From Pseudomonadota bacterium (GTDB taxonomy: Bacteria; Pseudomonadota; Gammaproteobacteria; Steroidobacterales; Steroidobacteraceae), in the NCBI GenBank assembly GCA_021779535.1, contig JAJYAM010000001.1:97152-161151 (forward strand): DNA of 64,000 bases, given 5' to 3'. The translations under genes and the position numbers were made by a program. Position 1 is the first letter of the stretch; each line of letters begins with the position of its first letter. Below the pieces are notes generated by a model, which saw only the letters and a list, made by a program, of their open reading frames with translations, did not search any database and had not been told where the DNA came from. Below are positions 3,191 to 57,421 of this stretch, piece after piece.

Positions 3191-4255
3191 TCAGTCGAAG
3201 CTGCGCAACGCGAGTCCGCACGCGGTCAATAGCGCCGTCGCGTCACGCTCCACGCCCTGCGCTCGAGCCTTTGACGACACTTTCATCGCACCGAGCGGAT
3301 CGCCCTTCTCGGCCGGCACTCCGACGCGGCTGGAGACCACGTCGGCGACGCCGGCAATGTTCGCGCAGCCGCCGCAGATCAGGATCTGGTCCGGCTGCGC
3401 GCGGCCGCTTCCGGAGGCGAGGTAGAACTGCAGCGATCGGCTGACCTGCTGCGTCATGTCGTCGATGAACGGGTCGAGCACCTCCGGCTGATAGTTGCTC
3501 GGCAAGCCGCCCTCCTTCTTCGCTCGCCCCGCCTCTTCCATGCTGAGGCCGTAGGTGCGCATGATCTCCTCGGTGAGCAGCTGGCCCCCGAACGCGAAAT
3601 CGCGGGTGTAGATCACCTTCAGGTCGCGCAGCACGCTGAACGTCGTGCTGCTCGCGCCGAAATCGACGACCGCGATCGTGCGGTCCATCCCCCCGTCGGG
3701 CATCTGATGGCGCATCAACGCGCACGCGTTTTCCAGCGCGAACGCTTCGACGTCGACGAGCTGCGCGGTCAGGCCCGAGGTCTGCACCGCGGCGCGGCGC
3801 TGCTCGACGTTCTCGGTCCGCGTTGCGACCAACAGCACGTCGATCATGTCCGAGTCCTTCTCGGACGGCCCGATCACCTGGAAGTCGTAGCTGACCTCCT
3901 CCATCGGGAACGGGATGTACTGGTCGGCCTGCATCTCGACCTGGGCTTCCAGGTCGCTTTCGCCGAGATTCTTCGGCATCTGGATCACTTTGGTGATCGC
4001 CGCGTCGCCGCTGATCGCGACGGCCGCGAGCCGGCTCTTCGCGCCGGAACGCTTGACCGCGCGCCGGACGGCTTCGCCGACCGCCTCGGCGTCGACGATC
4101 GCCTTTTCGTTGATCGCGTTGTGCGGCGTCGGTTCCGCCGCGTAGGACTCGACCCGATATTGATCGCCGGCCATCGTCAACTCGATCAACTTCACCGACG
4201 ACGTGGTGATGTCGAGCCCGAGCAGGGGGCGATACCGCTTAACGAACGACCACAC
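3191..4255 (-). CDS. pilM: Type IV pilus actin-like ATPase PilM
   Basis: 354 aa, LLGLDITTSSVKLIEL ... VVDFGASSTTFSVL; GTG start preceded by AAGGA Shine-Dalgarno. Confidence 0.96.
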   Translation of the reverse strand: MWSFVKRYRPLLGLDITTSSVKLIELTMAGDQYRVESYAAEPTPHNAINEKAIVDAEAVGEAVRRAVKRSGAKSRLAAVAISGDAAITKVIQMPKNLGESDLEAQVEMQADQYIPFPMEEVSYDFQVIGPSEKDSDMIDVLLVATRTENVEQRRAAVQTSGLTAQLVDVEAFALENACALMRHQMPDGGMDRTIAVVDFGASSTTFSVLRDLKVIYTRDFAFGGQLLTEEIMRTYGLSMEEAGRAKKEGGLPSNYQPEVLDPFIDDMTQQVSRSLQFYLASGSGRAQPDQILICGGCANIAGVADVVSSRVGVPAEKGDPLGAMKVSSKARAQGVERDATALLTACGLALRSFD

Positions 4256-46533: not shown

Positions 46534-48906
46534 TCAATAATGATATTGGACGGTCGCACTGAACGTGCGGGGCGGCCCGTAGAAGCCGATCTGGCTGACG
46601 CCGCCGAGCAAACCGGTGCTGCCGAAGTCATAACCGGCGACCCGATACCAGCGGTTGAAGAGGTTCTTGCCGTCGACCGCGAAACGCCAGGTGCCGCCGC
46701 GGGTGGTGTAGGCAAGTCCGGCGTCGACGAGTCCGTAGGCGGGCTGGTCGGTCACGCTCGGCGTCGTGTTCGCGACCTTCGCGAAGCTGCGCCAATCCCA
46801 GCCGGCCCGGGCGAGGAGGTTCCCGCCCCCGAGCTGCCACGTATACATCGCGTAGGTCGATACCGTCCACGCCGGCGCGTTGATCGGCCGATTCTGGTCG
46901 GCGACGTTCACGGGCGGCGAATTCGCCGAGCAGCCGGCGGTGAACGCGGTGCAGCCGACGAGGAAATCCTGATAGTAGGAGTCGAGGTAGCCGACGTTCA
47001 GCCCGAGCGTGAGCGGCGCGATCGGCTTCCACTCCGACTCGATCTCGACGCCCTGGTTGATCTGCCTCCCGGCGTTCAACACGGCGGTGACGTTCTGCGG
47101 CACGCCGTTGGCGTCGACGAACTGCTGCACGCCGATTTGCGCATTCTTGTACGGATCGTAGAACAGCGTGACGTCGAGCAGGAGCGTGTCGTCGCGCAGG
47201 GTCGACTTCATGCCGAGCTCGTAGCTGTCCGCGGTCTCGGAGCCGTAGCCTTGTTCGGTTTGCGGATAGACGGCCGCGTTGCCGCGCATGTCGAAGCCGC
47301 CGCTCTTGAATCCCTTGCTGTAGCTCACGTAGCCCATCACGTGCGGCGTGAAGTGGTAGTCGAATCCCAGCCGGGGGGAGACGTTCGGAAAAGAGCGGCT
47401 CGCGGTGTAGTTCGTCAGGATGCCGGCGGCGGCGTCCGGGAACAGGAAGAACCCCGGCGGGGGGCTCGAGGCGTCGAAGAACGTCTGATTGGGCAGCAAC
47501 TGCGTCGGCGCGACGCTCGCATATTGCGCCTGGTAGACCTGCGCGGTCTTGCGATCCTGGTTCCATCGCACGCCGGCGTCGAGGTTCAACCGGTCGGTGA
47601 GCTTCCAGGTGGTGTCCGTGTACAGGGCGGTGCTGCGAGTCTGCACGCATCCGTCGACGAGCGAGGTCAGGTACAGCCCGTATACCGGCACCAGTACGCC
47701 GATCGAAGCGTTGTAGGCGCCGCAGGCGCTGCTGTTCATGTAGAACACGCCGCCGACGGCCTTCAGCCGGTCGCCGCTGTAGGTGAGTTTCGCTTCCCCG
47801 GAGGCCTGTCGCTCCCGATATTGCGCCGGCACCTGGAAGAGATTGGAGTCGAGTTCCTCGAAGTCGATGAACTGCCGCCCGTGACCCTCGCGGTACGCGC
47901 CGATCACCTTCAGCGCGAAGCGCGGGGCGAGATTCTGCGTATACACGGCCGCGATGCCGTTGCGGAAATAGCGGTCCTGATTCACCGGCATGTCCGTGCG
48001 GGTGTCGTAGCGGCTGTCGAGCGATGGCGCATACGCGTTGGTGAGCCGCTGGCCGCCGGAGGCGTTCGAGTGGTCCTGGGTCGTGTCCGCGGTGATCTCG
48101 AGCTTCGAGCTCGCGCCCCAGGTCGCGGTCACGTTGCCGCGGGCGGCCAGCACGTCGTAGTTCGACACGTCCTGGCCGATCGAGTTGTAGGGACTCGGCG
48201 CGGCGCCGGCCTGCGCGACCACGTGGCCGTAACCGTCGTGGTGCACGTCGGCGACCGCGAGCCCGGCGTAGAGATGGTCGGCGACCAGGGGCATCGAGCC
48301 GCTCAGCTTCACGTCCCTTTCGCCATAGGTCCCGCCGGTCACCGAGGCCTTCAGCGAGGGCGGTCCGACGATGTCGCGGGTCACGTACTTGATCGCGCCG
48401 GCGATCGTGTTCTTGCCGTACAGGGTCCCCTGCGGTCCGCGCAGCACCTCGATCCGCTGCACGTCGTAGACGTCGAGCAGCGCGGCCTGCGGGCGCGCCA
48501 GGTAGACATCGTCGATGTAGACGCCGACGCTCGGATCGAACCCCCACAGCGGATCGCTCTGCCCCACTCCGCGGATGTACACGTTGATCGTGCTGCTCGT
48601 CGCGCGGTCCGCGGAGATCTTCACGTTCGGGACGAAGGAGCCGAGGTCCGCGAGCGAGGTCACGTCGCGCACCTCCAGCTCATGGCCGGTGAGGGCGGTC
48701 ACCGCGATCGGCACGTTCTGCACGTCCTCGCGGCGGCGACGCGCCGTGACCACGATCTCGGCGAGCCGATCGTCGGGACGCGCCGCGGCCGGCGGCTGCG
48801 CGGCGGCGCCACTCGACGGATGCAGCGTCGCGATCAGCGGCAGCAGCGCCGAAACAGCGGAAGGAATGCGTGAGCGGCGTGGAGCCGTGCGCGGTGTCTT
48901 GTGCAT
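46534..48906 (-). CDS. TonB-dependent receptor
   Basis: IVVTARRRREDVQNVPIAVTALTG TonB-box/plug, RIEVLRGPQGTLYGKNTIAGAI, C-terminal beta-barrel ending ...FSATVQYHY. Confidence 0.95.
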   Translation of the reverse strand: MHKTPRTAPRRSRIPSAVSALLPLIATLHPSSGAAAQPPAAARPDDRLAEIVVTARRRREDVQNVPIAVTALTGHELEVRDVTSLADLGSFVPNVKISADRATSSTINVYIRGVGQSDPLWGFDPSVGVYIDDVYLARPQAALLDVYDVQRIEVLRGPQGTLYGKNTIAGAIKYVTRDIVGPPSLKASVTGGTYGERDVKLSGSMPLVADHLYAGLAVADVHHDGYGHVVAQAGAAPSPYNSIGQDVSNYDVLAARGNVTATWGASSKLEITADTTQDHSNASGGQRLTNAYAPSLDSRYDTRTDMPVNQDRYFRNGIAAVYTQNLAPRFALKVIGAYREGHGRQFIDFEELDSNLFQVPAQYRERQASGEAKLTYSGDRLKAVGGVFYMNSSACGAYNASIGVLVPVYGLYLTSLVDGCVQTRSTALYTDTTWKLTDRLNLDAGVRWNQDRKTAQVYQAQYASVAPTQLLPNQTFFDASSPPPGFFLFPDAAAGILTNYTASRSFPNVSPRLGFDYHFTPHVMGYVSYSKGFKSGGFDMRGNAAVYPQTEQGYGSETADSYELGMKSTLRDDTLLLDVTLFYDPYKNAQIGVQQFVDANGVPQNVTAVLNAGRQINQGVEIESEWKPIAPLTLGLNVGYLDSYYQDFLVGCTAFTAGCSANSPPVNVADQNRPINAPAWTVSTYAMYTWQLGGGNLLARAGWDWRSFAKVANTTPSVTDQPAYGLVDAGLAYTTRGGTWRFAVDGKNLFNRWYRVAGYDFGSTGLLGGVSQIGFYGPPRTFSATVQYHY

Positions 48907-49010
48907 GTCGAACCCCCTGTGCGGCCGTCGCTTGCGGCCGTCGTTTTCCGTCGATCCTCGCGTCGAGCTTTGCGCCGATCGCGGCGCCCCGTGCGGGGCG
49001 AGACCGATTA

Positions 49011-49046
49011 TTCAACAAATGTTGAAGTAAATTCAACAATTGTTGA
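49011..49046. promoter_or_regulatory. Tandem palindromic operators between TetR regulator and TonB-receptor operon
   Basis: TTCAACAAATGTTGAA (49011-49026) and perfect palindrome TCAACAATTGTTGA (49033-49046); centres 21 bp apart. Confidence 0.85.
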
Positions 49047-49116
49047 TTACGGGATCGGCGCCGGCGGGCCGGGGGGTCGCGTTGCGAGTCGGTTCGAGGT
49101 GCGGGAAAATGCGCCG

Positions 49117-49917
49117 ATGCGAATGATGCGACGCAAAACCCGCGCCCGGAACCCCGCCGCCGGACCCGCGAAACTGCGGATCCTCGACGCCGCCGAGGAG
49201 CGGTTCGCGCGCAACGGCTTCTACGGAGTGTCGGTCCGCGACATCACCGAGGCCGCCGGCGTCGACGTCGCGCTCGTCAGCTACCACTTCGGCGGCAAGC
49301 GCGAGCTGTTCGCCGCGGTGTTCCAGCGACGCGCGCAGACGTTGAACGCGGAGCGGCTGGCGCTGCTCGAGCAGGTGCGCCGGCAGGCCCTGCCGGGCAC
49401 GCCCGCGATCGAGGAGATCGTCAATGCGTTCACCTTCCCGTTGCTCGAGCGCTCCGCGAGGGGGGGGCCGGGCTGGAAGAGCTATTTCGCGCTGATCGCC
49501 CAGGTCAACAACTCGCCCGAGTGGGGCCCGGTGTTGATGACCGAGCATTTCGATCCGCTGGTCGAACGATTCATCGCCGTCCTGCGCGAGGCGCTGCCCG
49601 ATTGCGATCCACGGGAGATCTACTGGGGTTACCAGTTCCTGACCGGCGCGCTGACCTTGACCTTCGCCGAGACCGGCCGCATCGACAAGCTCTCCGGCGG
49701 GCTGTGCCGTTCGAGCGACCTCGACAGCGTGCACGCGCGGCTCGCGCGCTACGTCGCCGCCGGATTCCGCGCGCTGTGCGCGTATGCAAAACCGGCCGGC
49801 GTGAAGCCTGCGACGGGCACGGCGAGACCACGCCAGCGCGCCGCCAAGCCTCGCTCGCCGAGCCCGAGCCCCGGTCGTCGCGCACGCCGGCGCACATCGC
49901 CTGAACGCAGGCGATGA
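49117..49917 (+). CDS. TetR/AcrR family transcriptional regulator (C-terminal domain CerR-like)
   Basis: KLRILDAAEERFARNGFYGVSVRDITEAAGVDVALVSYHFGGKRELFAAVFQRR HTH; basic Pro/Ser/Arg-rich C-terminal tail. Confidence 0.92.
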   Translation: MRMMRRKTRARNPAAGPAKLRILDAAEERFARNGFYGVSVRDITEAAGVDVALVSYHFGGKRELFAAVFQRRAQTLNAERLALLEQVRRQALPGTPAIEEIVNAFTFPLLERSARGGPGWKSYFALIAQVNNSPEWGPVLMTEHFDPLVERFIAVLREALPDCDPREIYWGYQFLTGALTLTFAETGRIDKLSGGLCRSSDLDSVHARLARYVAAGFRALCAYAKPAGVKPATGTARPRQRAAKPRSPSPSPGRRARRRTSPERRR

Positions 49918-54231: not shown

Positions 54232-54237
54232 TATAGT
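54232..54237 (+). promoter_or_regulatory. Putative -10 element (TATAGT) of the TPP riboswitch transcript
   Basis: GCGTATAGTAGCC; predicted +1 coincides with the 5' end of the aptamer; -35 not clear. Confidence 0.45.
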
Positions 54238-54242
54238 AGCCA

Positions 54243-54350
54243 CCGCTGGGGTGGTCCCGTCGCCGGGGCCTGAGATGCCGAGCGGGCGCGATCCTGCGCC
54301 TCGCGGCAAACCCATAGAACCTGATCCGGTTAATGCCGGCGGAGGGAGCG
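54243..54350 (+). ncRNA. Thiamine pyrophosphate (TPP/THI-box) riboswitch
   Basis: CCGCTGGGGTGG...GGCCTGAGATGCC...CAAACCCATAGAACCTGATCCGGTTAATGCCGGCGGAGGGA; contains the conserved CTGAGA and ACCTGATCxGGxTAATGCCxGCGGAGGGA blocks. Confidence 0.95.
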
Positions 54351-56501
54351 ATGCCTCGAATTCGAACGGCCCGGCGGGCCGCTTTCCTGATGTTCTACGC
54401 GTCGACCGTGCTGCCGTACGCCAGCGCGCACGCGGCGAGATCGGCCGCCGGCGGCGAGCCCGATACCCTGCGGAAGATCGTCGTGACCGCGACGCTGCGC
54501 GCAGTGCCGGACGTCGATCTCGCCGGCAGCGCGACCGTGCTCGGCGCGCACACCTTGCGCGCCGCCGGTGAGCAGCATTTCGAGGACGTGCTCCCGCTGG
54601 TGCCGAACCTCAACTGGTCCGGTGACACGTCGCGGCCGCGTTACTTTCAGATCCGCGGAATCGGCGAGCTGGAACAGTACCAGGGCGCGCCGAACCCCTC
54701 CGTCGGCTTCATCATCGACGACATCGATTTCAGCGGCCTCGGCTCCGCCGCGACGCTGTTCGACATCGCGCGGATCCAGGTGCTGCGCGGCCCGCAGGCG
54801 ACGATCGACGGGGCGAATGCGCTCGCCGGGCTGATCGTCGTCCAGAGCGAAGCTCCCGCCGACCGATTCGGGGGACGGGTCGAAGTCGGCGCCGGCGACT
54901 ACGGGACGCGGTCGTACGGCGCGGTGCTGACCGGCCCGGTTCCGGCGCTCGATTCGGCGTTTCGCATCGCCGCGCAGCGCTACGTCAGCAACGGCTTCTA
55001 CACGAACGTCTTCCTGCATCGGAACAACACCAACAACCGCGACGAGACCACGCTGCGCGGCCGCTGGCGTTACCGGCCGGATCCGAACCTGCGGGTCGAC
55101 CTGACGGTGCTGCATGTCGCGATCAACAACGGCTATGACGCGTGGGCGGTCGACAATTCGCGCACGACCGAGTCCGATCAGCCGGGGGAGGACGTGCAGC
55201 ACTCGACCGGCGTATCGCTGCACTCGATCTACCGGGGCTGGCACGCGGCGACGCTGACCGCGATCGCGACGTATGCACGCTCGTTGATCGGCTACGGCTA
55301 CGACGGCGACTGGGGGAATGAGCGCCTCTGGGCGCCCTACACCTACCAGTACAGCGAGTTCCAGGCGCGGAACCGCTCGACCCGGAGCCTCGAGCTGCGA
55401 CTCGCGTCGCCGGCGCGGCCGGGGATCGATTGGCTGGTCGGCGTGTACGGGTTCGAGATGCGCGAAGGCCTGAGCGACACGAATCTCGGCGTGTACGTCG
55501 ATCCGATACAGCAGTACGCGTCGACGACCGATTCGGTGCTGACGAGCCGTTATCGCGATCGCAACGTCGCCCTCTACGGCGAGATCGGCGGTGAGATCGG
55601 CTCGCGCACGCGATGGTCGGTCGGCGTGCGCGGCGAGCGGCACACGACGCGCTACCACGACCTGACGACCAATCTCGGTGCGCCGTCGACCAGCAACGCG
55701 TTCGCGCCGTCCTTCGCGCTGTGGGGCGGGCACCTGTCGATCGACTATGCGCTGCGGCCCGAAGAGCACCTCTATGCGTTGATCTCGCGGGGCTACAAGG
55801 CGGGCGGCTTCAACTTGAGCCAGGGCCTGCCGGCCGGCGAGCGCACGTTCGGCTCCGAGTCGCTGATCGATTACGAGATCGGGCACAAGCTCGTGGCCGA
55901 TCGCGGCCGCGTGCAGGCCGACACGTCGATCTTCTACATGCGCCGCCAGTCGCCGCAATTGAAGACCGGCACGCAGCTCGTCGCCGACGATCCGAACACG
56001 TTCGTGTTCTACACGGGGAACGCGAGCTCCGGCTATTCCTACGGGGTCGAAAGCAGCCTGCGCTGGCGGGCGACGCGGACCATGACGTTCGGCGCGGCGT
56101 TCGGATGGCTGCAGACGCTCTACCGCGGGTTCGTCCAGAACGGAATCCTGCTGCCCGACCGGCCCCTGCCGCATGCGCCGGACTGGCAGGGCGCGCTGAA
56201 CGCGCAATGGCAGGACCCGCGCGGACCCTACGCGCGCATCGACGTGACCGGCCTGGGCGGCTTCTACTACGATCTGCCGCCGAACCCGACCCGGTCACAT
56301 CCCTACGGGCTCGCGAACGTCAAGGTCGGCTGGAAGGACGCGCGCTACGACGTCGATCTGTGGGTCCGCAATGTGCTGAACAAGGACTACACGGTCCGCG
56401 GATTCTATTTCGGCGACGTGCCGCCGAACTTCCCGAACGCGCTGTATACGCAGCTCGGCGACCCGAGGACCTGGGGCGCGGACCTCACGGTGCGCTTCTA
56501 G
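54351..56501 (+). CDS. TonB-dependent receptor under TPP-riboswitch control (putative outer-membrane thiamin/thiamin-derivative transporter)
   Basis: Plug and barrel motifs (RKIVVTATLR, IQVLRGPQATIDGANALAGLIVV; C-terminal ...TWGADLTVRF). ATG at 54351 follows GGAGGGA; the ORF-track start at 54333 lies inside the riboswitch. Confidence 0.93.
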   Translation: MPRIRTARRAAFLMFYASTVLPYASAHAARSAAGGEPDTLRKIVVTATLRAVPDVDLAGSATVLGAHTLRAAGEQHFEDVLPLVPNLNWSGDTSRPRYFQIRGIGELEQYQGAPNPSVGFIIDDIDFSGLGSAATLFDIARIQVLRGPQATIDGANALAGLIVVQSEAPADRFGGRVEVGAGDYGTRSYGAVLTGPVPALDSAFRIAAQRYVSNGFYTNVFLHRNNTNNRDETTLRGRWRYRPDPNLRVDLTVLHVAINNGYDAWAVDNSRTTESDQPGEDVQHSTGVSLHSIYRGWHAATLTAIATYARSLIGYGYDGDWGNERLWAPYTYQYSEFQARNRSTRSLELRLASPARPGIDWLVGVYGFEMREGLSDTNLGVYVDPIQQYASTTDSVLTSRYRDRNVALYGEIGGEIGSRTRWSVGVRGERHTTRYHDLTTNLGAPSTSNAFAPSFALWGGHLSIDYALRPEEHLYALISRGYKAGGFNLSQGLPAGERTFGSESLIDYEIGHKLVADRGRVQADTSIFYMRRQSPQLKTGTQLVADDPNTFVFYTGNASSGYSYGVESSLRWRATRTMTFGAAFGWLQTLYRGFVQNGILLPDRPLPHAPDWQGALNAQWQDPRGPYARIDVTGLGGFYYDLPPNPTRSHPYGLANVKVGWKDARYDVDLWVRNVLNKDYTVRGFYFGDVPPNFPNALYTQLGDPRTWGADLTVRF

Positions 56502-57421
56502 CGCATCGTGACCCGCCGGGCCCGGTTCGAGAACGCGCGCGCCTCGAGCCAGCGCCGGACGCGCACGGCATCGGCGACCCGCGTGTACTTTCCCCAGGAA
56601 TCCAGGAGCACGATCACGAGCCGGCGTCCGCCGATCACGGTCTCCATCACGAGGCAGTGGCCCGCGGCGTTGATGAAGCCGGTCTTCTGAACGATGATCC
56701 GCCACGCGCGATTGGCGACCAGCCCGTCGGTCGTGCCGAACTCCACCAGGCGCCGGCGCACGCGGACCGCATAGCGCCGGTCGGTCGAGAACCGCCGGAT
56801 CGTCGGATTATGCGAGGCGGCGACGACGAGCTTCTCGAGGTCCCCCGGCGTCGACACGTTGCGACTGGTGAGCCCGGTCGGGTCAGCGAAATGCGTGTGC
56901 GTCATCCCGAGCGCCAGCGCCTTGCGGTTCATCGCCAGTATGGCGGCCGGCAAGCCGCCGGGATAATTGTCCGCGAGCGTGCGCGCCGCCCTATTCTCCG
57001 AGGACATCAGCGCAAGATGCAGCAACTGGCCCCGGGTCAGCGTCGTCCCGACCTTCAGGCGCGAGTACCAACCCTTGCCGTGGATCCGGTCGGCCGGCTT
57101 GATCGTGATCCGCTGATCCAGCGGCTGGTTCGCGTCGAGGACCACCAGCGCGGTCATCAACTTCGTGATCGAGGCGATCGGCTGGACCGCGTCCGGCCGC
57201 TTCGCATACAGCACCGCGCCGTTGGTCGTATCGACGACCAACGCCGCGCTCGAGCGCACACCGGGACCGCGCAGCCGCGCCGGGTGGTGGAGCGGATGGC
57301 GCAGATGATGGCGGCCGTGATGATGGGCCGGGGTCGCGAACGACGGCGCACCGATCAGCAACGCGGCGAACGCTCCACAGATCGTCGCCGCCCTCTGAAG
57401 CCGTCGACCGTTGGCGGACAT
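56498..57421 (-). CDS. pbpG: D-alanyl-D-alanine endopeptidase/carboxypeptidase (PBP7/PbpG-like)
   Basis: QPIASITKLMTALVVLD (SxxK), SSENRAARTLADNYPGG (SxN), VQKTGFINAAG (KTG). Confidence 0.9.
   Translation of the reverse strand: MSANGRRLQRAATICGAFAALLIGAPSFATPAHHHGRHHLRHPLHHPARLRGPGVRSSAALVVDTTNGAVLYAKRPDAVQPIASITKLMTALVVLDANQPLDQRITIKPADRIHGKGWYSRLKVGTTLTRGQLLHLALMSSENRAARTLADNYPGGLPAAILAMNRKALALGMTHTHFADPTGLTSRNVSTPGDLEKLVVAASHNPTIRRFSTDRRYAVRVRRRLVEFGTTDGLVANRAWRIIVQKTGFINAAGHCLVMETVIGGRRLVIVLLDSWGKYTRVADAVRVRRWLEARAFSNRARRVTMR

Follow-up and report, generated by a model that had tools for sequence, protein, structure and literature searches.

A TPP riboswitch with the Shine-Dalgarno sequence inside its aptamer at the start of a predicted thiamin receptor gene in Steroidobacteraceae

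Thiamin pyrophosphate (TPP) riboswitches commonly act by direct translation attenuation, with the purine-rich 3' conserved region of the aptamer replacing the ribosome-binding site (Barrick and Breaker, 2007; PMC2258182); a 2024 review (PMC10907184) places TPP under strand exchange, and SAM-II, SAM-III and preQ1 in its direct-occlusion group 1. TonB-dependent receptors (TBDRs) have also been linked to TPP riboswitches: in Bacteroides thetaiotaomicron, OMthi (BT2390) and pnuT-tnr3 are each under one where the operon is split (PMC5613172), and in SAR86 and Flavobacteriales a TBDR that lies close to such riboswitches, omr1, is a putative thiamin transporter (PMC10881298). Neither a thiamin receptor under a TPP riboswitch nor a ribosome-binding site within an aptamer is therefore new, and the locus analysed here, in a 64 kb stretch of a Steroidobacteraceae genome (Gammaproteobacteria; contig JAJYAM010000001.1, 97,152-161,151; hereafter the window), cleanly exemplifies a gene-switch type that is already known. 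In it, we judge with a probability of roughly 0.75, the 5' untranslated region consists of little more than the aptamer of a TPP riboswitch, which controls a TBDR importing intact thiamin (or its phosphates) in a thiamin auxotroph, by occluding the Shine-Dalgarno (SD) sequence when TPP is bound.

A preliminary description of this DNA, made from the sequence alone, had placed a TPP riboswitch directly on the start of the receptor gene. A covariance-model scan (cmscan) of the whole window against all 4227 Rfam families bore this out, matching TPP (RF00059, the THI element) at 54237-54364 on the + strand, as are all features of this locus, with 67.6 bits against a gathering threshold of 54.3 (E 4e-11 per 64 kb), over the complete model (positions 1-105) and with all core motifs present. 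The aptamer extends from P1 to P1' at 54242-54352, and the full THI box described earlier between TATAGT and the receptor ATG is found there, with CTGAGAT on the pyrimidine-sensing side at 54270-54276 and the ACCTGATCCGGTTAATGCCGGCGGAGGGA core, P4/P5 plus the 3' conserved strand, at 54319-54347. The insert that lengthens the P3 arm is G+C-rich, as had been noted, but measures 20 nt against the Rfam consensus (54283-54302) instead of about 30, and is an ordinary variable region. It lies within family variation, as do the shortened P1 and the G in place of U at the start of the P4 3' strand. The putative -10 element TATAGT (54232-54237; no -35 evident) is unchanged across four close relatives despite diverged flanks, and the transcript is predicted to start at ~54242-54245, at the 5' edge of the aptamer, so that the leader would be nearly the aptamer alone.

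The 3' end of the aptamer core reads GGAGGGA (54341-54347), and the GGAGG within it (54341-54345, with G54342 in place of the usual U) is the sole good SD for the receptor, whose ATG at 54351 comes 3 nt (GCG) after GGGA; the double role of this strand had been recognized in the preliminary description. The in-frame ATG further upstream, at 54333, is not taken as the start: it lies in an aptamer loop and is unconserved, relatives often having ATA or GTA, which leaves 54351. By the Rfam alignment and pairing table, GCG and the ATG (54348-54353) could pair with 54241-54246 in P1, with one C-A mismatch and if transcription starts early enough; the predicted start may trim part of the P1 5' strand. 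Twenty receptor leaders from the genus all place the start codon 2-5 nt past GGGA, with the aptamer GGAGG as the only plausible SD, so that a separate expression platform could not fit in, again as first described. Here, as in the direct-attenuation category of PMC2258182, the purine-rich strand conserved at the 3' side of the aptamer core holds the ribosome-binding site; the gene whose start codon comes directly after it is in this case that of a gammaproteobacterial receptor. The site is likewise built into the aptamer in SAM-II, SAM-III and preQ1 riboswitches (PMC10907184), but their aptamer folds differ.

The 716-residue product of the downstream gene (54351-56501) has a TonB plug domain (PF07715, E 2.4e-12, over cut-off) and a barrel that is matched weakly by PF14905, below cut-off, and across which the pesticin receptor 4epa aligns (E 9e-17). 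The next gene (56498-57421, - strand) is convergent and overlaps the receptor stop codon by 4 bases, hence the receptor has no operon partner in this genome. In the host genome, an assembly of 2.93 Mb in 127 contigs that is 99% complete, there are exactly two TPP riboswitches, and the second heads an operon for a YkoF-like protein (PF07615, 1.9e-7), a PnuC/PnuT-type transporter (PF04973, 2e-44) and an APH-family kinase (PF01636, 2.9e-12) whose family and context suggest that it acts on thiamin. This operon, together with ThiL (317 bits), would provide the thiamin salvage genes that the preliminary description had advised looking for elsewhere. Family-by-family model searches of the host genome gave no match for ThiC, ThiE or ThiG, with the same models matching 11-14 of 14 control genomes; one gene may have been missed in a 127-contig assembly, but that all three were missed together is unlikely. 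Without ThiE, hydroxymethylpyrimidine (HMP) and thiazole cannot be joined and intact thiamin or its phosphates are needed, so these precursors would be useless to the host. A thiamin kinase and ThiL convert thiamin to TPP; with the APH-family kinase and ThiL both present, TPP could be made from imported thiamin. From its gene content the host looks like an intact-thiamin auxotroph.

Among 60 genomes of relatives (labels of the form L0xx denote individual genomes), 48 have a TPP riboswitch above cut-off, mostly with the orthologous TBDR next. Most members of the genus carry two, typically one ahead of this TBDR and one ahead of ykoF-pnuT, whereas in at least nine relatives of other genera or families riboswitch, TBDR and then ykoF and/or pnuT form a single operon: the TBDR is followed by ykoF ~2.1 kb downstream in L042, L056, L057, L058, L059 and L065, and by pnuT in L053, L070 and L071. 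Because the two halves form one unit in these other genera and families, an ancestral TBDR-ykoF/pnuT operon was probably split in the window's genus with a riboswitch kept on each half. B. thetaiotaomicron has the same arrangement of a TBDR and PnuT, each with its own TPP riboswitch after an operon split, and the likeness is one of layout; that species is in Bacteroidota, also makes thiamin and has tnr3 beside pnuT where the window host has an APH-type kinase. Orthologues 34-41% identical to the receptor, also after TPP riboswitches, occur in Marinicella, Woeseia, SAR86 (37%) and other Gammaproteobacteria. Here omr1 is comparable as a TBDR with a nearby TPP riboswitch in B1-auxotrophic lineages; a start-codon fusion is not described for it in the part of PMC10881298 considered.

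The receptor thus has what marks a thiamin-specific TBDR, namely TPP regulation and linkage to pnuT and a putative thiamin kinase, through shared regulation in the window's genus and through the operon in other genera; and its riboswitch, as expected for RF00059, precedes a predicted thiamin transport gene, the TBDR orthologues sharing operons with ykoF/pnuT. The preliminary description had left the cargo as thiamin or a precursor or phosphate. Given that no ThiC, ThiG or ThiE was found and that TBDR-ykoF/pnuT operons exist in relatives, the best predicted cargo is intact thiamin (or its phosphates), and a precursor is unlikely; the receptor is very probably an outer-membrane vitamin B1 importer.

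The ligand-dependent occlusion of the SD already envisaged in the preliminary description would then work as follows. With abundant TPP, the ligand-bound aptamer would lock the 3' strand that doubles as SD, possibly together with the start codon in P1, and ribosome binding would be blocked; when TPP is scarce, the SD strand would be freed and the receptor made, and the imported thiamin would be converted to TPP via the kinase and ThiL. A P1 that takes in the start codon was considered as the switch itself but is no part of the main claim: a helix of 5-6 bp is confined to the closest relatives of the window (six unbroken pairs in one of them), and other members of the genus mostly lack it, with two G-C pairs conserved. 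Some observations weigh against occlusion or against thiamin as cargo. We know of no close homologue of the receptor with a tested substrate, and the closest solved structures are those of pesticin and ferripyoverdine receptors. When the ligand-free leader is folded with ViennaRNA, most SD positions have an unpaired probability of only 0.01-0.4, that is, the SD is mostly paired, which leaves three possibilities: a different real ligand-free ensemble, a role for co-transcriptional kinetics, or control by something other than simple occlusion. Moreover, OMthi and pnuT transcripts of B. thetaiotaomicron did not change significantly with thiamin (PMC5613172), though translational control would escape transcript data.

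The predicted folding bears directly on whether a genuine riboswitch on a genuine thiamin receptor might exert its main effect on transcription or on the stability of the RNA, for instance by Rho-dependent termination once translation is blocked or through an alternative fold that involves the first part of the coding sequence. The ligand-free SD does pair with alternative partners, including CCUC in the first codons, and PMC10907184 cites TPP aptamers that exert both translational and Rho control; but almost no RNA separates the aptamer from the start codon and the CCUC partner is unconserved even in a close relative, which has ATGTCACGA in place of ATGCCTCGA, and we regard such control as unlikely though worth keeping in mind. 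It is less probable still that the aptamer has decayed and is retained just as a ribosome-binding site, and indeed we give this very little credence: P1 is short, with 3 G-C pairs before a mismatch, and G54342 breaks a consensus pair, yet core positions and pairs are kept both in distant orthologues and across 20 leaders of the genus while P3 varies in length and sequence.

A receptor that is TPP-regulated but imports some other ligand, be it HMP, thiazole, a corrinoid or a siderophore, would accord with a sequence similarity that by itself indicates TBDRs in general, with solved relatives that are siderophore and pesticin receptors, and with best NCBIfam matches that include heme and B12 receptors, all far under their cut-offs. 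Such a cargo appears improbable in a cell that has no detected ThiE with which to join HMP and thiazole, the more so as the linkage to ykoF/pnuT recurs across other genera and families and the cmscan against Rfam found no cobalamin riboswitch in the 64 kb window.

Returning to the leader itself, the usual aptamer has GCGUAGGGA where fused receptor leaders have GCGGAGGGA, which completes GGAGG and pairs more strongly with the anti-SD (-10.0 versus -8.1 kcal/mol for the usual base, by duplex calculation). We compared 78 TBDR/pnuT leaders from relatives and orthologues, 28 with G and 50 with U or A at this position, and the start lies ≤5 nt from the core end in 24/28 of the former and 0/50 of the latter, an exploratory association made after seeing the data and among leaders that are not independent, 20 of the 28 being from one genus. 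Beyond that genus, G together with a start within 6 nt is found in five genomes (L021, L027, L051, L080 and L086), and G with a distant start in L059, L071 and L077. In SAR86 (L080, 2835-2935) the leader reads GGCGGAGGGATGGCGTATCTATTA / GGCGGAGGGATGG, the final conserved A of the aptamer being also the A of the start codon, ~1 nt separating GGAGG from AUG, and a convincing signal peptide following the start. In a class-wide sample of Gammaproteobacteria, G was not significantly associated with a start at ≤5 nt (3/17 versus 4/68, p 0.14); several of the starts listed there probably belong to frames that are extended too far, and leaders with G whose starts are tens of nt away also exist, many being thiC-like. 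We therefore put forward only tentatively, and with rather less than even confidence, that in gammaproteobacterial thiamin receptors the TPP aptamer was repeatedly merged with the translation start through the U-to-G change that yields GGAGG, a reduced P1, and a start 2-5 nt past the core or, in SAR86, on its last A, such that the aptamer alone would be the whole leader and switch. The G-for-U change in fused leaders and the SAR86 overlap of start and core are a small point that is possibly new.

In the class-wide sample, the gene behind a TPP aptamer is mostly thiC-like and starts ~40-130 nt away, and fused leaders are a small minority. Two other Gammaproteobacteria (L098 and L099, families f180 and f185) have a TPP aptamer with GCGGAGG and then, at +7, a frame of 457-460 residues that is unrelated to the TBDR, YkoF or PnuT queries and whose N-terminus is membrane-spanning in appearance; it is possibly a transporter with a similar fused leader.

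Elsewhere in the window, a cyclic di-GMP (c-di-GMP)-I riboswitch (RF01051, 4540-4627, - strand, 73.3 bits) is directed at a pilM-like gene (3191-4255, -) ~280 nt away that is followed by pilN/pilO-like genes, all named from reading their translations, which suggests c-di-GMP control of type IV pili at this locus. A second TBDR of 790 residues (46534-48906, -) is divergent from a TetR-family-like regulator (48901-49917, +), and cmscan of the window placed no Rfam riboswitch ahead of it.

Altogether, the analysis offers a specific, well-supported substrate prediction for a TBDR family that extends to abundant lineages such as SAR86. The leader, having no separate expression platform, is a compact system in which to test whether TPP binding alone blocks ribosome access, and the receptor family would serve as a marker of dependence on intact dissolved vitamin B1.
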